Virus record (IMG/VR): IMGVR_UViG_3300023174_000050
Coordinates: 124,001 to 188,000 of that record
Strand: one strand, 5' to 3'
Source of the DNA: a virus
DNA length: 64,000 nucleotides
Made by a program: the position numbers and the translations under genes. The notes beneath the pieces were generated by a model. That model saw only the letters and a program-made list of their open reading frames with translations, did not search any database and was not told where the DNA came from. This document shows positions 42,474-56,520 of the stretch, piece after piece (position 1 is the stretch's first letter; each line of letters starts with the position of its first letter).

Positions 42474-42956
42474 ATGAAAAAATTAGACATGAATGAAGTT
42501 ACTGCTTTTATCGAAGCGCAAAGTCCAGAGACCAAAATATACATTGGAGCGGATTCCGAACGATATAGAAGAAACGATAAATGGTACGCCGACTATACTC
42601 TTGCTATTGTAGTCCACATCGATGGACGCCATGGTTGTAAAATCTTTGGTGAAGTTCAAACCGAAATTGATTATGATGCAAAAAATAGCAGACCTTCCAT
42701 GCGTCTAATGAATGAAGTATATAAAGTTGCAGAACTATATCACAAACTTATAGATGCAGATGTAATTGGTGAAAAAGAAGTTCAAATTCATCTTGACATT
42801 AATCCCAAAGAATGTTATAATAGCTCTATAGTGATTCAACAAGCAGTTGGTTATATTAAAGGGACCTGTAATGTGGTACCGATGGTTAAGCCAAATGCTT
42901 TTGCAGCTAGTTATGCTGCCGATAGACTGAAAGAGGTCATGGCAATGGCGGCATAA
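42474..42956 (+). CDS. RNase H-fold protein, YkuK/DUF458-like
   Basis: A 160-residue protein with IYIGADSERY and YTLAIVVHIDGRHG, the start of the RNase H-like fold of DUF458 proteins, and a later Asp-rich IHLDINPK and a C-terminal KPNAFAASYAADRL segment. It may act on RNA or DNA. ATG 42474 has AAAGGTG upstream. The end of the gene holds the promoter for the tmRNA. Confidence 0.75.
   Translation: MKKLDMNEVTAFIEAQSPETKIYIGADSERYRRNDKWYADYTLAIVVHIDGRHGCKIFGEVQTEIDYDAKNSRPSMRLMNEVYKVAELYHKLIDADVIGEKEVQIHLDINPKECYNSSIVIQQAVGYIKGTCNVVPMVKPNAFAASYAADRLKEVMAMAA
42793..42821 (+). promoter_or_regulatory. sigma70-type promoter inside the RNase H-fold gene
   Basis: TTGACA and TATAAT with 17 bp, within the coding sequence and about 160 bases before the tmRNA acceptor piece. 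No other promoter lies nearer, so it is the likely driver of the tmRNA. Confidence 0.65.
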
Positions 42957-42979
42957 ATAATTTTATTGTTGTATGAAGC

Positions 42980-43028
42980 GAAGAGAAATGTGTTCTGGAC
43001 GGGGGTGCAAATCCCCCCAGGTCCACCA
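42980..43028 (+). ncRNA. ssrA: tmRNA acceptor piece
   Basis: The T-arm GGGGG/CCCCC with loop TGCAAAT is followed by the acceptor strand CAGGTCC, discriminator A and an encoded CCA at 43026-43028. Upstream is the part that pairs with the coding piece. The 5' end is estimated. Confidence 0.85.
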
Positions 43029-43114
43029 TAAACATACTAGCCTTTGGGTGTAGTCCGTAAGGATCAAGAGATAATTTCAAAGACCCCATATAACCAAGTT
43101 AGTATGTTTTTGAT

Positions 43115-43284
43115 GGGCCTGCATAGTTTCGACAGGGCAAATAGTAACGGAGTGGACAGCACATCAGAGTAGATGTTAAAACTAAAACAACGTAAACGCA
43201 AACGACGAAATGTTCGCATTAGCAGCCTAAACACTGCTTAGGGTTTCGGTAGGTTTCCTCGTAACAGAATAACCTACCTTTTTA
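43115..43284 (+). ncRNA. ssrA: tmRNA coding piece with tag
   Basis: It starts GGGCCTGCATAGTTTCGACA, the conserved D-like end. The resume codon GCA at 43198 opens the tag reading frame (10 codons, stop at 43228-43230). A perfect 8-bp hairpin GGTAGGTT/AACCTACC (43248-43278) and five Ts follow, a likely terminator and 3' boundary. Confidence 0.88.
43248..43283 (+). terminator. Terminator at the tmRNA coding-piece end
   Basis: An 8-bp stem (GGTAGGTT/AACCTACC) with a 15-base loop and TTTTT. It may also be part of the mature RNA. Confidence 0.7.
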
Positions 43285-43302
43285 AATTTAAAAAGGAGTT
43301 TT

Positions 43303-43866
43303 ATGAAAAAAACAGTATTAGCACTTGCGCTTTTGGCAAGTTTAACAGTCTTTGCTAGCGATAATGTAGCAGTAGACTATTCAGTTAAGAAAAAAGTTGA
43401 TTCAACACAACACAATGATGTATATGGATTAACCGTTGGTCATAAATTAGACAACGGCATTACTTCAGAAATTCGTTTTGAAAATGAAACAACTAACACT
43501 GGCAAACAAGAAGGTTTAATGCAAGTTAAAGGCATTTATGATTTGACCGGTGTGGCAGGTGTTACACCATATGTTGCAGCAGCAGTTGGTCATAAAATGA
43601 AAGCAACTGAGAATTTTGAATTCTATGTTGCGGAGGTTGGCGCAAAAACAAATTTAGGTCCTGTAGGATTAAAATTTGCATCTCGTATTCGCTCACCCTT
43701 TGATGAAGGACATATTGGTGCAGGTAGTAAATATCGTACATATGAAAATAGTTTGACTGCAGGTTATAAGTTAAACAAACTTGATACTATCAGTGTCAAA
43801 TATGCAAATGAAAAAGGTGATAGTAACTATCATACAACAGGCGTATCCTTTAGTCACGCATTTTAA
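43303..43866 (+). CDS. Outer-membrane beta-barrel protein
   Basis: A 187-residue protein with a signal peptide (KKTVLALALLASLTVFAS) and eight or so alternating amphipathic strands (for example GLTVGHKLDNGITSEIRFE), ending in a terminal Phe (GVSFSHAF), as required for insertion by the BAM machinery. It resembles small porin- or OmpA-type barrels. A phage-encoded barrel could alter the host surface, as in lambda Lom-type proteins. AAGGAG precedes the ATG, 20 bases after the tmRNA terminator. Confidence 0.78.
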   Translation: MKKTVLALALLASLTVFASDNVAVDYSVKKKVDSTQHNDVYGLTVGHKLDNGITSEIRFENETTNTGKQEGLMQVKGIYDLTGVAGVTPYVAAAVGHKMKATENFEFYVAEVGAKTNLGPVGLKFASRIRSPFDEGHIGAGSKYRTYENSLTAGYKLNKLDTISVKYANEKGDSNYHTTGVSFSHAF

Positions 43867-48480: not shown

Positions 48481-48505
48481 AGGGCGCTTCGGCGCCCTTT
48501 TTTTT
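48481..48505 (+). terminator. Rho-independent terminator
   Basis: GGGCGC and GCGCCC around TTCG, then eight Ts. It separates the early-type genes from the late operon at 48565. Confidence 0.9.
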
Positions 48506-48531: not shown

Positions 48532-48539
48532 TATAAATA
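48532..48539 (+). promoter_or_regulatory. T4-type late promoter
   Basis: TATAAATA, 25 bases before the first gene of the operon with capsid-targeting-like N-termini. Confidence 0.78.
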
Positions 48540-48564: not shown

Positions 48565-48798
48565 ATGGAATCATTCAAAAGTTATGTAGAAAAACATACA
48601 CCAAAGCTAGTCCAAAAACTACACCATCCCGATAAAACCAATTATAATTTATACGCGAAGGGCAATGGATCACATCATATTAAAGATATCCACGGTGAAG
48701 TATTACACACATTCAAAGGAATGTCTGCAAAAGAAATAGTAACTTCATTAAAAGGATTGGGATTTAAGGAAGGGCACCATGCTAAATTCCATAAGTGA
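48565..48798 (+). CDS. Small late protein, capsid-targeting-like N-terminus
   Basis: A 77-residue protein starting MESFKSYVEKHTP, similar to the T4 capsid-targeting sequence (MKTYQEFIAE-type). It is basic and rich in His and Lys. It overlaps the next gene by 20 bases. A possible internal head protein. Confidence 0.6.
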   Translation: MESFKSYVEKHTPKLVQKLHHPDKTNYNLYAKGNGSHHIKDIHGEVLHTFKGMSAKEIVTSLKGLGFKEGHHAKFHK

Positions 48799-49771
48799 AA
48801 GAGCATTGCAATCTGACGCAGCAGGTGCTAACCAGACAAGAGGTGCTTATAATGAGCATATGTTTGCCTATCATTTAAATGGTATGAAATGGACAGACTC
48901 TGATCATAAGAATCAGGCAATGAAGTTAAAGAAAAGTTTAGATTCTATAGGCCCCCAAGAAGCAAGAATACAAGATGACAGAGCGAAAGAACAAGCGTCT
49001 GCATTTTTAGATCATGCAAAAAGTTTAGGATATTCTGGAGTAGATGAAATACACAATACTGCGAAGGCGGGTGGTATAGAAGCTGCTACAGGAATAAAAT
49101 TAAGCCAGCAGGAAAATCCATCAGATATAATTGTAAAATTTAAAAAGAAACCGGCAAAAGCAACTCATGGATTTTTTGGCGCATCATTAAAATCTTCAAC
49201 CGCAGCAAAAATTGGTTTTCACAATGGCGGCGCTGGTACTATGGATAAAGAACTTGGTACAAACATTGAGGCTATTGCAAAAGAACGACACGAAAATTTT
49301 AGAAAGAAAAATAACTTATCTACAGCAGTAGGTGAGAGAGCCAAACAAATTAAAGGCGAAGGTGACCAAAAAAGAAATAATTCTTTATATGATGCTGCAT
49401 CCGAGGCGGCAAATAATACTCATGAGGATATTAGAAATCATTTAAATGATCACTATTCTGGTATGAAACAAAAAGATTTAAAGAGTCATTTACTTAATAC
49501 ATTTTTAAAAGCAGATTCTAGTAAAGAAAATATTCCTTATGTTAAAGCACACGGAAGAGGCGGCGGCGATAAAGATGCATCTGCACATATAGAAGCACCT
49601 CACGACAATCCTGTATATCATGCAATTAAAAATGCTAATAACATAACAATGGAAAAATCTGGTAAATCATATTTGCGAGTAATGGCAGATGGAAAGAAAG
49701 CATTTTCTATTCAAGTGAAACATAATAATGAGCCAATGGCATCGTCAATTAAAATATTAGGACAACCATGA
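48779..49771 (+). CDS. Late protein, nuclease-like features
   Basis: A 330-residue protein. NEHMFAYHLNG, then PSDIIVKF and GASLKSS, resembles the E...D...xLK set of PD-(D/E)XK-type nucleases, which would put it among packaged or late DNA-processing enzymes. The identification is a pattern-level guess. It has no capsid-targeting-like start itself. It overlaps both neighbours. Confidence 0.5.
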   Translation: MLNSISERALQSDAAGANQTRGAYNEHMFAYHLNGMKWTDSDHKNQAMKLKKSLDSIGPQEARIQDDRAKEQASAFLDHAKSLGYSGVDEIHNTAKAGGIEAATGIKLSQQENPSDIIVKFKKKPAKATHGFFGASLKSSTAAKIGFHNGGAGTMDKELGTNIEAIAKERHENFRKKNNLSTAVGERAKQIKGEGDQKRNNSLYDAASEAANNTHEDIRNHLNDHYSGMKQKDLKSHLLNTFLKADSSKENIPYVKAHGRGGGDKDASAHIEAPHDNPVYHAIKNANNITMEKSGKSYLRVMADGKKAFSIQVKHNNEPMASSIKILGQP

Positions 49772-50931
49772 TATCTTTCTTTCAATATTTAACTGAAGCT
49801 AAAAGTAAAGCCATACCTCACCTATCACACTTAGGTGGCGAGGAACACTTGTATGGTAAAGATAGAGCCAATGATGAGATGTCTCGTATGGAAGACATGT
49901 CTAAGTATTTTAAAGGCGAAAAATCTAATGTAGATACTGTAGGAATTAAGGCAGACGGTTCGCCATCGTTTGAAATGGGGCACGTAGTAAATCCGCATAC
50001 AGATAAAAGAGAATTTGGAGTAGCATATAAAGGTGCAGCCAAAGGTTATGCATTCTCTCAATCAGACGTTAATAGAATGTTTGGTCACAATGAGCATCTA
50101 AAATCTAAGATGTCGCAACTATTAGAACATGGACATAAGATAGTAGGACCTATACATGGTGTCATTCAGGGCGACTTTATGGGGAGCAAAAAAGATGGCA
50201 CCATAAAAAAAGAAGGTAACGAAGTAACACATAAAGAAAATTTAATTAAATATCATTATCCTGCAAATTCGGATGAGGGCAAAGAATTACAAAAAGCAAA
50301 AATAAGTGTATCCCTGCATACAAGAATAGATAAAGAAAATCCAGAGTATAATATTGATACTAAAAAATTACACGAACACCCAGACGTACACGTATTCAAT
50401 AATAAATTAAATAAAGAAAATGTACACTATACACCTGAGGATGATAAAGAATACCAATCCAATATGGACAAGGCAAAAAAGAGTTTAGGTAAAATAAAAA
50501 ATCACGATGAGCTTGTCGAAGGACACTCTGAGCATCTACAAACATACATCAATAAAACCGTTAGAGAAGGAACTGCCCCATCCGCATCCGGTTACAAGAA
50601 ACATCTACACGAAAAACTAATGAAGGAAGTAGATAAGGTTTCTAGAGAAGATACTAAGAAACGCAAAAAAGAACACGCCGAATCAATGGCAGAAGATGTG
50701 GAAAATAATAAGGAAGACTTTACTCATCTTTTTACTGCGCATAAACATTTAGACAAAGCAAAGAATGTATTCTTAAGAACACTTGAGAATAGTGGACAGA
50801 ATCAAAAACACACTATTAATGGTGTGTCAACTAAGCCAGAGGGATTTGTAGTATCCTATAAAGATGGTAACCCTCGCAAGATTGTTAACCGAAGCAAAGA
50901 AGGCTTCTCCGGACAGAACTTAAACAAATGA
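49768..50931 (+). CDS. Ligase-like nucleotidyltransferase candidate, capsid-targeting-like N-terminus
   Basis: A 387-residue protein. It starts MISFFQYLTEAK, like the T4 capsid-targeting signal. Then KADG (K61-G64, in IKADGSPSFEMG) matches the nucleotidylated motif I of DNA/RNA ligases and capping enzymes. Near the C-terminus, EGFVVSYK (from E358) and RKIVNRS (K371) resemble motifs IV and V. It may resemble DUF6267 proteins of T4-like phages. The distance between motifs is larger than in minimal ligases, so the assignment is tentative. Confidence 0.5.
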   Translation: MISFFQYLTEAKSKAIPHLSHLGGEEHLYGKDRANDEMSRMEDMSKYFKGEKSNVDTVGIKADGSPSFEMGHVVNPHTDKREFGVAYKGAAKGYAFSQSDVNRMFGHNEHLKSKMSQLLEHGHKIVGPIHGVIQGDFMGSKKDGTIKKEGNEVTHKENLIKYHYPANSDEGKELQKAKISVSLHTRIDKENPEYNIDTKKLHEHPDVHVFNNKLNKENVHYTPEDDKEYQSNMDKAKKSLGKIKNHDELVEGHSEHLQTYINKTVREGTAPSASGYKKHLHEKLMKEVDKVSREDTKKRKKEHAESMAEDVENNKEDFTHLFTAHKHLDKAKNVFLRTLENSGQNQKHTINGVSTKPEGFVVSYKDGNPRKIVNRSKEGFSGQNLNK

Positions 50932-51362
50932 TAAATTTTAAATCTTACATCAAAGAAGAAACAATTTTAGATGAGTTGTTTGATATAGTAGAAGACTATA
51001 TAGAAACTTTATCCGCGGAACAGGGAATAGACTCCGAAGTCCTTTGGGAACATTATGAGGATACAGATGATGATACTCTATTTGGTTTAGCCGAAGATTG
51101 GCAAGACTCCAAATACAAGAATCCAGAAGGCGGTTTGACCAAATCTGGGGTAATGGCTTATAGAAGAGAACATCCCGGAAGCAAACTACAAACTGCTGTT
51201 ACTACTAAACCATCTAAACTAAAGCCCGGAAGTAAAGCAGCAAATCGTCGTAAATCCTTTTGTGCTCGTATGGGCGGAATGAAGAAGCGCTTAACATCTG
51301 CAAAGACTGCTAGAGATCCTGATTCAAGAATCAATAAAGCTCTGCGTAAGTGGAATTGTTAA
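50928..51362 (+). CDS. Late protein with DUF6321-like C-terminus, capsid-targeting-like N-terminus
   Basis: A 144-residue protein starting MINFKSYIKEETILDE. The C-terminal part, GGLTKSGVMAYRREHPGSKL, then RRKSFCARMGGMKKR and ALRKWNC, is a pattern I know from cyanophages (DUF6321-like). An acidic middle (VEDYIETLS, YEDTDDDT) separates them. A basic Cys-containing end suits a DNA-binding head protein. Confidence 0.65.
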   Translation: MINFKSYIKEETILDELFDIVEDYIETLSAEQGIDSEVLWEHYEDTDDDTLFGLAEDWQDSKYKNPEGGLTKSGVMAYRREHPGSKLQTAVTTKPSKLKPGSKAANRRKSFCARMGGMKKRLTSAKTARDPDSRINKALRKWNC

Positions 51363-51447
51363 TGCTAGAATCAACCGGGGTACATAGACAATGATAACAT
51401 CGAGTCAATAGAAAGTCAATATATTTTGAATAACTTTGGAGTAGTAT

Positions 51448-51612
51448 ATGAGTTGGTATAATAGAAAACCTAGATTAAAGGAACCTAAGAAATTGATTTC
51501 TCCTAAACACATTAGTCCTGCAACGGAGAAGATACTAAAAGATACTAAAAAAAGGGTATCAGCTAAAGAAATTGTCGATGAGAATCCAGTACACAAACAT
51601 ATACAGAATTAA
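51448..51612 (+). CDS. Small basic protein, MSWYNRKPR-type
   Basis: A 54-residue protein: MSWYNRKPRLKEPKKLISPK, HISPATEKILKDTKKR. It is basic, follows GGAG, and has a close relative in memory in other T4-like phages (MSWFKRKPK-type). Function unknown. Confidence 0.6.
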   Translation: MSWYNRKPRLKEPKKLISPKHISPATEKILKDTKKRVSAKEIVDENPVHKHIQN

Positions 51613-51628
51613 CCAAACAATCAAAACA

Positions 51629-51636
51629 TATAAATA
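51629..51636 (+). promoter_or_regulatory. T4-type late promoter
   Basis: TATAAATA, 30 bases before the adenylyltransferase-like gene. Confidence 0.7.
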
Positions 51637-51666
51637 AGTAGATACAACTAAATTCTAATAGATTTC

Positions 51667-53502
51667 ATGAACTTTAAAGACTATATCAAAGAAGCCGCAG
51701 CAAAGGCTAAAAAGCCTGAGAAACCGGAGGAAACCACGGCGGTAATGGCTTTTGGCAGAATGAATCCTCCCACAGTTGGGCATGAAAAACTTATCAATAA
51801 ACTACATGATGTTGCATCTGATCACAAAGGTGAGGCTCATTTATTTACATCTCATAGCCAGGGTACTGCAAAAGACCCTTTAGATCAAAAAACAAAAATT
51901 GGTTACCTTCATAGTATTGTTCCGGGCGGTATGCAGGTACATGGTTCGACAAAAGAAAAGCCTACCTTCTTGCACGCCGCAGCAAAGTTATATGCACAAG
52001 GTCATAAACATTTGGTGATGGTTGCTGGCTCTGATAGAGTGGATGAATACAGAAACATATTGGAAAAATATAATGACGGAAAAGAACATGCACATGGCAA
52101 GTATAAATTTAAATCTATAAAGGTTGTTTCCGCTGGACAAAGAGATCCTGATGCAGAAGGCATCGAAGGTATGTCTGGAACAAAGATGCGAGATTATGCC
52201 AGGGGTAATCGTATAGATAAATTTAAGACTGGGTTGCCTGACGTATTAAAAGCTCATGCACAAGAAATTGCTAATCACATTCGTGCAGTAAAAGTCAAAG
52301 GTGTGGATATAAAAGAGGATTATGAAAATCCTTATCGCTTTGATGATGCCACTCCTCAAGGCACGGAGTATATGAAAAAGATGACTCCGGGACAAAAAAT
52401 AGAATGCGTTACTGGCGTATGGAGTGAAAAATTAGGTACCTGTGTATCTGTTAGAGAAGCTTATATACAAAACGAAATATTTAAACTTAATGATATAGTT
52501 GAAGCAATGAATGGCGACAAAGGCCCTATAGTATTCAGAGGTTCGGCGTATGTTACTATACAATTGAAAGAAGGTAAGTCTGTGAAGCATTGGTTAAAAG
52601 ATATACAAGAGTCCAGTACAAAAGAAACTATTGCTCTTACTAAACCTGCAAGAAAAGTTATAGAAAATAAAACACCTGCATTATTCATGTCTAAAAAGCA
52701 ATTGGAGGAAATGAATAATAATAGAATGGAACTGGAATATAATGGATATCAAACAGACCATTTACATATGTGCCCGGGTGCTTCTGCACAATTAAAAGAA
52801 TTAATAAAAAGAACTGATTTAAATCCAACATATATACTACAAGCAGTTCAAGCATCAGATCAATATTTAGGTATTGAAGAAGAAGCGAAGAAAAAAGGAT
52901 TTGCAGACGATCAAATGGTTCACGACTTTAATATGAAACTTGCGATTGCTCATGACACACTTAATATGCTAGGTTATCCTGATAAAGATTTAATGTATAT
53001 GTCTAAGCATATACAAGATATGGCAAAATTATCTATGCACAAAGATGGTTCATTTGCCAACGAAACAGAAAATACAGTACCAACTTTCGGTTCAGGGGAT
53101 GCGTCCGAAAGTTATATTCCTAATGTTAAGGAGACGATAACAATGTCCAATTTAAGAAAACGAATTGCGGAAATGACAAATAATGTGTCGACTCCTGCGC
53201 CCCAATATACAAACTCAGGCAATTATCCTGAAGATCCCCCTACTGCTCATAGAGATGTAAATTTATCAGGTAGTAAAGAAGTTTATCATGGTATAGATCA
53301 TACTATAGATTTAAAAGGTTTTGATGGTAAACCTCTTGGTTTAGTTTCATTTAAATCTTTTCTTGCATCACCCGAAACCAGTAAAATAGAAAAAGAAAAA
53401 GGCGACGCTATGCAAGATGTACATAGAGCAAAGGCCGAATTAGCAGTACATTCTTCTGCATATAAATTAATGAGAAAATACCAACAATCGAGTTTACCAT
53501 GA
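51667..53502 (+). CDS. Adenylyltransferase-like protein with long C-terminal extension, capsid-targeting-like N-terminus
   Basis: A 611-residue protein. After MNFKDYIKEAAAKAK it has FGRMNPPTVGHEKL (H39 of the TxGH nucleotide-binding motif), a VMVAGSDRVDEYRNIL segment, and EGMSGTKMRDYA, the ISSTxxR-type site of NMNAT and cytidylyltransferases. About 400 residues of unknown sequence follow, with CPGASAQLKELI and repeated helical parts. Substrate could be NMN or a similar nucleotide. It may be capsid-packaged. Confidence 0.65.
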   Translation: MNFKDYIKEAAAKAKKPEKPEETTAVMAFGRMNPPTVGHEKLINKLHDVASDHKGEAHLFTSHSQGTAKDPLDQKTKIGYLHSIVPGGMQVHGSTKEKPTFLHAAAKLYAQGHKHLVMVAGSDRVDEYRNILEKYNDGKEHAHGKYKFKSIKVVSAGQRDPDAEGIEGMSGTKMRDYARGNRIDKFKTGLPDVLKAHAQEIANHIRAVKVKGVDIKEDYENPYRFDDATPQGTEYMKKMTPGQKIECVTGVWSEKLGTCVSVREAYIQNEIFKLNDIVEAMNGDKGPIVFRGSAYVTIQLKEGKSVKHWLKDIQESSTKETIALTKPARKVIENKTPALFMSKKQLEEMNNNRMELEYNGYQTDHLHMCPGASAQLKELIKRTDLNPTYILQAVQASDQYLGIEEEAKKKGFADDQMVHDFNMKLAIAHDTLNMLGYPDKDLMYMSKHIQDMAKLSMHKDGSFANETENTVPTFGSGDASESYIPNVKETITMSNLRKRIAEMTNNVSTPAPQYTNSGNYPEDPPTAHRDVNLSGSKEVYHGIDHTIDLKGFDGKPLGLVSFKSFLASPETSKIEKEKGDAMQDVHRAKAELAVHSSAYKLMRKYQQSSLP

Positions 53503-53936
53503 ACGAAAATTTAATAGATGCCTTACAAAAAGTTTTATCAAATACATTTACAATGTATTATAAAGCACATTCTTCTCATTGGAATGTAGAAGGATCTAAT
53601 TTCCCTCAGTATCATGAATTTTTTGAAAATATTTATACTGAACTATGGGCAGCAGTGGATGATATTGCCGAAAAAATTAGACAACTTGATGGTTATACTC
53701 CATCATCATTGGCAGAATTAATGTCTCATTCTATGGTGTCGGAAAACACTGAGCATTTAACTGCTGCAGAATATATTTCTAAATTAATAGATGCAAATAA
53801 TTTAGTATTAGCATCTTTATTAATGGCGTATAAAGAAGCAGAAGCGGTTACTGAAATTGGTGTGTCTAATTTTATTCAGGATAGAGTAATGGCACAGCAA
53901 AAACATGGCTGGATGTTAAAATCAACAGCAAAATGA
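53499..53936 (+). CDS. dps: Dps-like ferritin
   Basis: A 145-residue protein with the Dps core: YYKAHSSHWNVEG (with the ferroxidase His), YHEFFENIYTEL and AAVDDIAEKIRQL (with Asp and Glu). It lacks the long basic N-terminus that binds DNA in E. coli Dps, and no capsid signal is seen. In T4-like phages such proteins may shield DNA in capsids or protect the host cell. It overlaps both neighbours by 4 bases in the late operon. Confidence 0.85.
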   Translation: MNENLIDALQKVLSNTFTMYYKAHSSHWNVEGSNFPQYHEFFENIYTELWAAVDDIAEKIRQLDGYTPSSLAELMSHSMVSENTEHLTAAEYISKLIDANNLVLASLLMAYKEAEAVTEIGVSNFIQDRVMAQQKHGWMLKSTAK

Positions 53937-54376
53937 TTTCATTCAAAGAATTTATTGAGGTCGAAATAACTGAAGAAGATATTGATGCTTTGATAGAAAG
54001 TCTTGAATGGGAAGATGTAATAGATTTGTTTGATACTGAAGATATGATTTTAGAAGATATTAGTTCTTCGCAAAGATTAAAGATGTCAACAAAGACCAGA
54101 TCAAGAAAACATTTGTTGGCGTTGGCTAGAAATATTAAGTTAAAAAGATCTGCTGCTTTGCCCATATTGAAAAAAAGATCTGTAACAGATGCTCGCAAAT
54201 TACTCATGAGAAAATTTTTAAAGGGCAGAGATAAGAAGCATTTATCTGCAGGCGAAAAGAATAGACTTGAAACACGTGTAGCTGCAGCATTATCCATGAT
54301 GAAAAATTTACCTACAAAATTGTTACCTAAGGTAAGACAATTAGAACGAACAAGATTAGCGAACAAGGGCAAATAA
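53933..54376 (+). CDS. Basic late protein, capsid-targeting-like N-terminus
   Basis: A 147-residue protein. MISFKEFIEVEITEED is followed by an acidic part (IESLEWEDVIDLFDTED) and a strongly basic half (TKTRSRKHLLALARNIKLKR). The switch from acidic to basic is usual for head-associated proteins that bind DNA. It starts inside the Dps gene. No enzyme motif. Confidence 0.65.
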   Translation: MISFKEFIEVEITEEDIDALIESLEWEDVIDLFDTEDMILEDISSSQRLKMSTKTRSRKHLLALARNIKLKRSAALPILKKRSVTDARKLLMRKFLKGRDKKHLSAGEKNRLETRVAAALSMMKNLPTKLLPKVRQLERTRLANKGK

Positions 54377-55449
54377 TGAAAACATTAAGTAGTTTAAGAC
54401 AGGAAGTATCCGAAGCCAAAAAAATGAAGGGTGAAGATCCTTGCTGGACAGGTTATAAGATGCTAGGTACAAAAGACAAGGGCGGCAAACAAGTTCCTAA
54501 TTGTATTCCTGAAGAAATTGAATCCATTGATGAAATATCTACAAAAGGATATTATACTGCTGCTGCCAAGAGTAGACTGAGTAATGCTGTTAAAGTAGCA
54601 TCTAGTATGGGTACAGATAAACAGGCAAAGACAAAACTTGATGCTCGCAATGCCGGAATGAAACGCGTTGAAAAACGAACTCAGGATGATATGAAAAAAG
54701 CAAACTCTGGTCCTCAAAAGCCAAGAGTAGAAAAAGAACCTACCGAAGCCGAACGTCGTGGTTACGGTCAAGGTCGCTACATGGGCGATAGTTATGAACC
54801 AAATGCTTCTACACAAATTTATGAAAAAAATAAAGATGAGAAAGAATATGGTTATGAAGGCGACATGGCTCTAAATCAATTGAAAACATTAGTGCGATGT
54901 GCTGAAATGATTGAAGATATGCTAAAGCCAGATACTGATTTACCAGAATGGGTTCAATCTAAAATTACTCTGGCTACTGACTACATTCAAACTGCAGCCG
55001 ACTATATGTACTCTGAGATGAATGAAGAGAATAATTTAATTGATGAAGCAGACCAAACAGACGAATCCAGAAAATCATACTATATCAATAGCAGAGCAAG
55101 AAAAGATCCTGCAGTTGCGCTTGCAAGAAAACAAAGAAGAAACTTTAGAAATCCTCCAATGGTGAGAGGCAAAAATGTAAACTTAGAAAATGTTTCCGGG
55201 CCACTCGCCGAGGCGTTAAGTGCAAGAGATAGATTGACAATGGCTATGAATAGAGAAAAAGAAAAACGTGAAGCGCACGAAAAGGCAAGTGAAGCAAGAG
55301 AAGCTGCAAAAAAAATGTCTCAGCAACCTACGCAACCCGAACAAAAAATTAAAGAAGGCATTGCAAGTTTAATATCTAATAATATTAAAAAAGTAACTGC
55401 AACCAAACCCACTCCTCAACAAAAGGCCGATATTAGGCTTAATAAATAA
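54376..55449 (+). CDS. Late protein, cyanophage-type, possible capsid-targeting start
   Basis: A 357-residue protein. The start is MKTLSSLRQEVSEAKKMK, which is weaker as a capsid signal. It contains the DPCWTGYKMLGTKDKGGK pattern, known from cyanophages and of unknown function, and a long Lys/Glu-rich part with a coiled-coil-like stretch (NREKEKREAHEKASEAR). It is probably a structural or internal protein. Confidence 0.6.
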   Translation: MKTLSSLRQEVSEAKKMKGEDPCWTGYKMLGTKDKGGKQVPNCIPEEIESIDEISTKGYYTAAAKSRLSNAVKVASSMGTDKQAKTKLDARNAGMKRVEKRTQDDMKKANSGPQKPRVEKEPTEAERRGYGQGRYMGDSYEPNASTQIYEKNKDEKEYGYEGDMALNQLKTLVRCAEMIEDMLKPDTDLPEWVQSKITLATDYIQTAADYMYSEMNEENNLIDEADQTDESRKSYYINSRARKDPAVALARKQRRNFRNPPMVRGKNVNLENVSGPLAEALSARDRLTMAMNREKEKREAHEKASEAREAAKKMSQQPTQPEQKIKEGIASLISNNIKKVTATKPTPQQKADIRLNK

Positions 55450-55473: not shown

Positions 55474-56520
55474 ATGAACTTACTAGACCCAACAAACCAC
55501 AGAATCTCTAATAGCCTATTTGATGCTATTAATAAAGTGAGACGCGGAGAACCTCAACAATTGGTTGAGAATGAAGAAACTTCTGTAGAAGAAGGTAGAG
55601 TAGATGGTGCACACTATTGCGCTACTCATGTAGAACATTCTTTATATGGGGAAGGTGAATGCATCTCCGAAGATCACGCTGCACCGGATGAAAATGGAAA
55701 CATTTCCTGGTACAACGTTAAATTTCCTGATGGCAATCGCAGAATTCAAACCGAAGCAATGAAAATTAAAAAAGCTAAAATGCACGAGCATGCTATTAAA
55801 GATGGCGAAACTATTGAAGAAGCAGACACCGTAGAAGAAGGTAATGATGGTAATTTAGCAAATAACTATCCTCCATATGATAAAGTTACAAGAGGCGATG
55901 TAATTGCTGGTCGTTTGGGTAAAGACCAAATGGGTGGTAAGAAAAAAGTTAAATCGGATGCTTCATCTGTAAAAGAATCTAGATCTAAAGGTACTGCATT
56001 TGATATGTCTATGCCAAGCCAAATTCCAAAGGCACCTGGCGAATTGACAGGTCACACTGCTAAGAAAACTAAAACCGGTGTTGAATATACTAAGAATCCA
56101 CCTAAGCAGCCCAAGGATACCGGTGTTCCTCATTCTCCAAAAAAGAAAGCAATGAAGGAAGGCATTTCTCAAACCGTTATCAATTATAATGATTTCGTTT
56201 TAGAAGTAACTGATAATCCTACATACGGCGATTATCTAAAAGCATTGCAATCTATGGTTGGTGAATCCAACGAAGAACTACAAAAAGATATCGTTAGTAT
56301 TGCTACAGAAGCATTTAACGAAAAATACGAAGATGTGATTATTGAATCGCATACTAAACAAATCTTTGAAAATAAATTTAAGCAATTCCGCGAAGCGGGT
56401 TCTAAAGTTGTAAGTGAAAGTTATATGGTAGAATCAGGTGACCCTTATGTCGAGTATGTTTTAGAAAAAAATGGTGAACGCATTCAATACATTCATATCG
56501 GAACAATAGAAAAGAAATAA
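55474..56520 (+). CDS. Late conserved protein with beta-rich and helical halves
   Basis: A 348-residue protein with GAHYCATHVEHSLYGEGECI and ENGNISWYNVKFPDGNRRI early, both known in cyanophage proteins of unknown function, and a middle Thr/Lys-rich region. It closes the group of late genes with capsid-targeting-like starts. A virion role is likely. Confidence 0.6.
   Translation: MNLLDPTNHRISNSLFDAINKVRRGEPQQLVENEETSVEEGRVDGAHYCATHVEHSLYGEGECISEDHAAPDENGNISWYNVKFPDGNRRIQTEAMKIKKAKMHEHAIKDGETIEEADTVEEGNDGNLANNYPPYDKVTRGDVIAGRLGKDQMGGKKKVKSDASSVKESRSKGTAFDMSMPSQIPKAPGELTGHTAKKTKTGVEYTKNPPKQPKDTGVPHSPKKKAMKEGISQTVINYNDFVLEVTDNPTYGDYLKALQSMVGESNEELQKDIVSIATEAFNEKYEDVIIESHTKQIFENKFKQFREAGSKVVSESYMVESGDPYVEYVLEKNGERIQYIHIGTIEKK

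Follow-up and report, generated by a model that had tools for sequence, protein, structure and literature searches.

Enzymes with predicted T4-type capsid-targeting sequences in a late operon of a T4-like virus

The virus record IMGVR_UViG_3300023174_000050 (190,131 bases), from an uncultivated T4-like phage of aquatic origin, was analysed over a window of 64,000 bases, corresponding to bases 124001–188000 of the record; feature coordinates are window positions unless prefixed G000:C1. At positions 48565–55449 the + strand carries a head-to-tail run of genes encoding, in order, a 77-residue protein, a 330-residue protein, a DUF6267 protein, a DUF6321 protein, a 54-residue protein, a 611-residue protein, Dps, a 147-residue protein and a 357-residue protein. 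This operon very probably makes T4-type capsid-targeted head cargo: several of its proteins start with a short N-terminal tag resembling the capsid-targeting sequence (CTS) of T4, and both the tags and the targeting to the head are well supported, the latter because the comparison of the tags is joined by published virion proteomes of relatives. The sequences analysed here contain the tags with their cleavage triplet, show them to be modular, and include a late promoter and the gene of the protease; others have detected the tagged nucleotidyltransferase in virions for homologues.

N-terminal tags and late promoters of the operon

The features of the operon, all on the + strand, are as follows.

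48481..48498, +: intrinsic terminator, closing the upstream gene
48532..48539, +: T4-type late promoter TATAAATA, 3′ of the terminator and 25 nt 5′ of the ATG at 48565
48565..48798, +: 77-residue protein, N-terminus MESFKSYVEKH
48779..49771, +: 330-residue protein, nuclease-like by motif only, untagged
49768..50931, +: DUF6267 protein, ligase-like, 387 residues (PF19782, E = 1.9e-46)
49768..49797, +: predicted capsid-targeting sequence MISFFQYLTE / A (cut after E)
50928..51362, +: 144-residue protein with a C-terminal DUF6321 domain
50928..50957, +: predicted capsid-targeting sequence MINFKSYIKE / E (cut after the first of the two E)
51448..51612, +: 54-residue basic protein, isoelectric point (pI) 10.1, untagged
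51629..51636, +: second late promoter TATAAATA, 30 nt 5′ of 51667 (611-residue protein gene)
51667..53502, +: 611-residue cytidylyl/nicotinamide mononucleotide (NMN)-adenylyltransferase-like protein (PHROG cytidyltransferase, E = 3.8e-53)
51667..51693, +: predicted capsid-targeting sequence MNFKDYIKE / A (cut after E)
53499..53936, +: Dps/ferritin-like protein, untagged (PF00210, E = 3.7e-24)
53933..54376, +: 147-residue basic protein, pI 10.0
53933..53974, +: predicted capsid-targeting sequence MISFKEFIEVEITE / E, with a displaced cleavage triplet
54376..55449, +: 357-residue basic protein, N-terminus MKTLSSLRQE (second class, see below)

In T4, IPII and IPIII start with MKTYQEFIAEA and IPI with MKTFKEFTSTT...ITEA (NC_000866). 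In the T4 CTS, mutagenesis has shown targeting to depend on residues 4 and 7 and processing on residues 8 and 10; an aspartate at position 10 stops processing but leaves targeting intact (PMC9026906). The full T4 pattern (aromatics at 4 and 7, I/L at 8 and E at 10) is found three times in the operon, in MISFFQYLTEA (49768), MINFKSYIKEE (50928) and MNFKDYIKEA (51667), where the aromatics of the last are shifted by a lead that is one residue shorter and its (I/L)xE is counted as in register. The N-terminus at 53933, MISFKEFIEVEITEE, has both aromatics in register, and its first (I/L)xE is the ITE of residues 12–14, a displacement comparable to that in T4 IPI. At 48565, MESFKSYVEKH retains the aromatics (F4/Y7) and lacks (I/L)xE, as does the homologue of this 77-residue protein in a related locus (L018; MFSFSSFMDK); under the T4 rule such a protein could be targeted but left uncut. 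The N-termini of the 330-residue protein (48779) and of Dps (53499) carry no tag. Scored with a position matrix trained on the tags of other phages, the N-termini at 49768, 51667, 50928 and 53933 rank 1–4 among the approximately 281 of the 190-kb genome, and the same four outscore all 986 internal methionines. The tags are real and not a product of chance.

The 77-residue protein gene overlaps the start of the untagged 330-residue protein gene by 20 nt. A ribosomal frameshift joining the two proteins across this overlap was considered, and no obvious slippery site was seen on inspection. The 77-residue protein could also be an uncut adaptor that brings in the 330-residue protein in trans.

Late expression of the operon is supported by the two promoter sequences listed above. 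The TATAAATA octamer is not enriched in the window (11 observed and 12.7 expected by chance), so that the argument lies in its position rather than in its count. ATAAATA lies at a similar distance ahead of the genes for the tail sheath, the scaffold and the major capsid protein in this genome, and the promoter arrangement before the 77-residue homologue in L018 is the same as here. An earlier note on this DNA had proposed a late operon with five N-termini of FKxYIxE type. The late operon is supported by the octamers ahead of 48565 (25 nt) and 51667 (30 nt) and by the terminator upstream; all five N-termini are in place, but only three match in full, one having a displaced cleavage triplet and the one at 48565 lacking the cleavage half.

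Distribution and modularity of the tag in relatives

Related loci were gathered in three scans, of which the first is biased in having used a tag-containing peptide among its patterns, while the third used the DUF6267 profile with its N-terminus removed. Across the 124 loci, 154 of 1203 + strand open reading frames (ORFs) of at least 100 residues begin with the motif M-x(1-3)-[FYW]-xx-[FYW]-[ILV]-x-E, a count that includes many homologous ORFs and not independent events; among internal methionines the figure is 5 of 6877, and among antisense ORFs 0 of 1602. The bodies that follow the tag form about a dozen families that show no blast similarity to one another. Among the tagged proteins of relatives there are matches to adenylate kinase, P-loop/zeta-type kinases, HAD phosphatase and DUF6321; relatives of the 330-residue group carry tags of their own (MITSFKSFLIEEA and MLSNFRSFLIE); and in the cultured Methylophilales phage Melnitz the tag is present in gene 15 (MQGFKTFLSEA) and gene 16 (...NFSKYITED).

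The DUF6267 family allows tagged and untagged homologues to be compared: an N-terminal extension precedes the domain in 66 members, and in 17 the protein begins with the domain itself. An (L/I)xE triplet occurs in 59 of the 62 distinct extensions, compared with 20.4 ± 3.2 after shuffling within each extension and 6 ± 2 for interior stretches, and it ends 4–13 residues ahead of the conserved HLxH. The aromatic register is present in 37 of these 62 extensions (1.7 in shuffles). For the nucleotidyltransferase, 23 of the 33 extended members are tagged, and 8 members have no extension. Invariant F4 and E10 in our alignment (A6) are there by construction, as many of its rows were picked for the tag. 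A nucleotide-level signal at the gene starts was rejected because the codons at the motif positions vary, and for the same reason selection must act on the protein. The existence of extended and extension-less homologues, together with these mixed codons, therefore identifies the tag as a protein-level module, which on these comparisons has been added to and removed from the front of complete domains.

Virion proteomes of related cyanophages

Published virion mass spectrometry is available for homologues in the cyanophages S-SCSM1, S-SZBM1 and S-CREM2. In S-CREM2, 5 of 218 ORFs start with a slightly relaxed form of the motif, and tagged ORFs are overrepresented in the virion list (PMC10665884, Table 3): 4 of the 5 tagged ORFs were detected, compared with 47 of the 213 others (one-sided Fisher p = 0.011). 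The four are a SAM hydrolase (MKDFDSFLEEF), gp13 (MKDLHSFLTEQ), an APH-like kinase [(V)KRFDAFLTEE] and a cytidylyltransferase (MKNFSSFLTEA). In S-SZBM1 the tagged cytidylyltransferase (MRFRQFIIEA) was detected, and DUF6267 and gene 142, which neighbour it and carry no tag, were not (PMC9146016). In S-SCSM1 the tagged NMNAT (MKSFLQFLKEA) is marked as a virion protein, as are several of its neighbours (PMC9602691); this protein, gp91, shares 30% identity with the 611-residue protein of the window (E = 4.5e-37). When S-CREM2 and S-SCSM1 are pooled, the Fisher p is 0.004. The accessible portions of the published cyanophage virion work contain no mention of a targeting sequence, and a literature search for CTS and cyanophage, from which subscription papers mostly fell outside, returned only the T4 review (PMC9026906).

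A further virion-detected protein of S-CREM2, gp12 (L126, 5705–8314), annotated as a Cas9-type nuclease, has a CTS-like LRFASFMAEA from residue 17; translation may in fact begin at a codon downstream of the annotated start.

Identity of the proposed cargo

The 387-residue DUF6267 protein is likely to be ligase-like, as judged from its motifs. It contains KADG, K88, QGD, EGFV and K371/R375, and the corresponding K-x-D-G, later K, Q-G-D, E-G-x-V and K...R are invariant in 16 diverse members of the family. Their order is that of the covalent nucleotidyltransferase (ligase) superfamily, namely motifs I (KxDG), III, IV (EGxV) and V (K). In an hhalign comparison with T4 RNA ligase 1 only motifs IV/V align, EGFVVSYKDGNPRKI with EGYVAVMKDGSHFKI, and weakly (E = 0.022); apart from members of the family itself, the first BFVD hits named as ligases are to RNA ligase 2, again weak (E = 0.13–0.36). 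The AlphaFold2 (AF2) model has a mean confidence score (pLDDT) of 91, the segment below 50 being residues 4–13, the tag region. In some phages DUF6267 and the nucleotidyltransferase are fused (phrog_455; S-PM2, 591 residues), and their joining in one polypeptide suggests that the two act jointly.

The 611-residue protein (51667) contains the TxGH motif, as GRMNPPTVGH, and the SxTxxR-type MSGTKMR. For the 330-residue protein, a nuclease is a guess at the level of motif: in its NPSDI...GASLK segment (D...SxK), D116 and S136/K138 are invariant in eight sequences, and its AF2 model is of low confidence (pLDDT 61). Profile comparison detected no homology to the gene that occupies this position in S-SCSM1/S-CAM4, and the detection of S-SCSM1 gp90 by mass spectrometry was consequently not counted for this protein. 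Dps (53499) has a ferritin-like domain (PF00210); as cargo it was rejected, since the tag is absent both here and in every relative.

The earlier note had also read three of the products as a nuclease, a ligase and an adenylyltransferase, had included Dps and had proposed that the enzymes may be packed into the head and injected. The adenylyltransferase is kept as a cytidylyl/NMN-adenylyltransferase-like protein, by its motifs and its PHROG match; the ligase holds as far as its motifs and the weak match to T4 RNA ligase 1 go, and the nuclease as far as D...SxK. Targeting to the head is well supported for the tagged proteins by the comparison and by the virion proteomes of relatives; the tag is absent from the 330-residue protein and from Dps, whose gene is indeed in the operon (PF00210, E = 3.7e-24).

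Prohead protease, core proteins and alternative explanations

The same phage encodes an S77 (gp21-family) prohead protease (G000:C1:105705–106163, E = 4e-36), the N-terminus of which itself holds a site of the cut form, LVE / A; in the major capsid protein LFE / T occurs near residue 52. We propose that an N-terminal propeptide of about ten residues would use its two aromatics to dock the enzyme behind it on the prohead core, and that the gp21-family protease would then cut after (I/L)xE, leaving a mature enzyme in the head that would enter the host along with the DNA. The cargo would include the nucleotidyltransferase, the ligase-like nucleotidyltransferase and small basic proteins, with an early role in the nucleotide/nicotinamide adenine dinucleotide (NAD) or nucleic-acid repair chemistry of the host. 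Docking, cleavage, injection and this early role are what we infer, with cleavage and injection expected by analogy with T4. A plausible common theme of the cargo would be nucleotide/NAD and nucleic-acid repair at entry, which might counter defences that deplete NAD or cut RNA.

Several observations weigh against this explanation. Two of the five tags of the operon lack an in-register (I/L)xE. Searches of DUF6267 against the PDB, by profile and by fold, gave no usable match and leave the ligase assignment unconfirmed, as does, for the nuclease, the lack of a PDB fold match or a Pfam match for the 330-residue protein. The virion proteomes all come from relatives; the tagged gp30 of S-SCSM1 (MKTFKQFMSES) is not marked as a virion protein; and the virion proteins of S-CREM2 taken together show no significant shift in tag score (p = 0.07), as is expected because most virion proteins are structural. 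Enzymes detected by mass spectrometry may moreover be contaminants: the S-CREM2 authors name both packaging and contamination as possibilities (PMC10665884). The tag favours packaging over contamination.

The tagged proteins may instead be components of the prohead core, docked and cut during assembly and not delivered, their catalysis being incidental or acting on packaging. A core-type protein gene (G000:C1:104615–105211) adjoins the protease gene, and operon proteins of relatives share its MKKFKELRE N-terminus and its C-terminal LYANIHAK module; among them are orthologues of the 357-residue protein (54376), which have the LYANIHAK module and in relatives the N-terminus MKxFKxLRE. Small basic proteins are also typical of cores. 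Yet the catalytic motifs of DUF6267 are invariant in tagged and untagged members alike, the tags sit on many different enzymes, and the core proteins of T4 are broken up and for the most part disappear, whereas the enzymes in question are present in the mature virions of relatives. We therefore regard this alternative as unlikely. The second class of N-termini to which that of the 357-residue protein belongs, M-x(1-3)-[FLY]-xx-[LIV]-R-E, starts 23 of 1838 + strand ORFs compared with 2 of 7767 internal methionines, and may be a core-protein variant. The C-terminal modules LYANIHAK...RKPGSKGAPT and CWxGYKxxGTKxKGGKxVPNC recur in core-type and operon proteins (L014, L032, L021 and L012).

Less probable still, and in our view improbable, is that the motif is a short amphipathic helix with another role (binding of membrane, DNA or a partner) unrelated to head targeting. 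F..F(I/L) with charged neighbours could make a small helix, AF2 predicts H4-11 in DUF6267 with low confidence, and some tags have no (I/L)xE. A helix would, however, leave unexplained the (L/I)xE in 59 of 62 extensions just ahead of the domain, the exact T4 register and the enrichment among virion-detected proteins of S-CREM2. Chance resemblance, which single tags of only about ten residues might invite, has next to no probability, being refuted by the internal-methionine, shuffle and antisense (0/1602) controls.

Significance and neighbourhood

Relative to T4, the address label of the head cargo is the same and the cargo is different and larger, and it is spread through aquatic T4-like phages, including the cultured Melnitz. 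Whether these phages share a general modular delivery system appears to us evenly balanced: a cleavable tag of ten residues on many unrelated enzymes would arm the virion with a pre-made kit for nucleotide/NAD and nucleic-acid repair and for counter-defence, acting before phage gene expression. Its enzymes would be the ligase-like nucleotidyltransferase, the NMNAT-like transferase, adenylate-kinase-/zeta-like P-loop kinases, a HAD-like phosphatase, SAM hydrolase, an APH-type kinase and the Cas9-annotated nuclease. The tag would provide a sequence rule by which phage proteins that are probably packed and delivered can be read from genome data alone, and it bears on the question raised in cyanophage proteomics of whether an enzyme is packaged or a contaminant. 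It predicts that in the most abundant aquatic phages many 'auxiliary metabolic' or hypothetical enzymes act at DNA entry. It is also a source of new targeting tags with which T4-like heads could be loaded with proteins.

Three further features lie in the neighbourhood of the operon.

55474..56520, +: 348-residue protein, with N-terminus (M)xxLxPTNHRISNSLFDAINKVRxGE kept in relatives
42914–43321: permuted transfer-messenger RNA (tmRNA), tag ANDEMFALAA (ARAGORN); Rfam tmRNA_permuted 120 bits, beta_tmRNA 116 bits
38308–46590, +: 26 tRNA genes around the tmRNA

The first of these is the gene after the operon, and it and its relatives have a conserved N-terminus, (S/N)LFDAINKVRxGE / SLFEEIQKVT, that is unlike the CTS motif. 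The tmRNA, which the phage itself encodes, hints that the host is a betaproteobacterium; the related phage Melnitz is known to have a tmRNA in two pieces (PMC9004378).

Comparison with known systems

The closest parallel is with IPI, IPII, IPIII and Alt of T4, with which the operon shares the N-terminal register, the (I/L)xE rule, an S77 protease in the same phage and a late promoter. The T4 IPs are small basic anti-restriction proteins, whereas the cargo here consists of large enzymes from a conserved multi-gene operon, and several relatives have the tag on kinases, SAM hydrolase and HAD-like proteins. The cyanophages S-SCSM1, S-SZBM1 and S-CREM2 have a homologous NMNAT/cytidylyltransferase with a tagged N-terminus in a similar gene cluster, but the phage of the window also has tagged DUF6267, DUF6321 and 147-residue proteins. 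The ejection proteins of SPN3US and phiKZ are likewise loaded into the head and have N-terminal propeptides that the prohead protease cuts after a glutamate; those propeptides, however, are long (often more than 100 residues), with AxE/SxE motifs. Finally, DarB of phage P1 also has a short N-terminal signal, which is sufficient there to load a reporter into the capsid, although the assembly pathway differs, P1 apparently having no separate scaffold.

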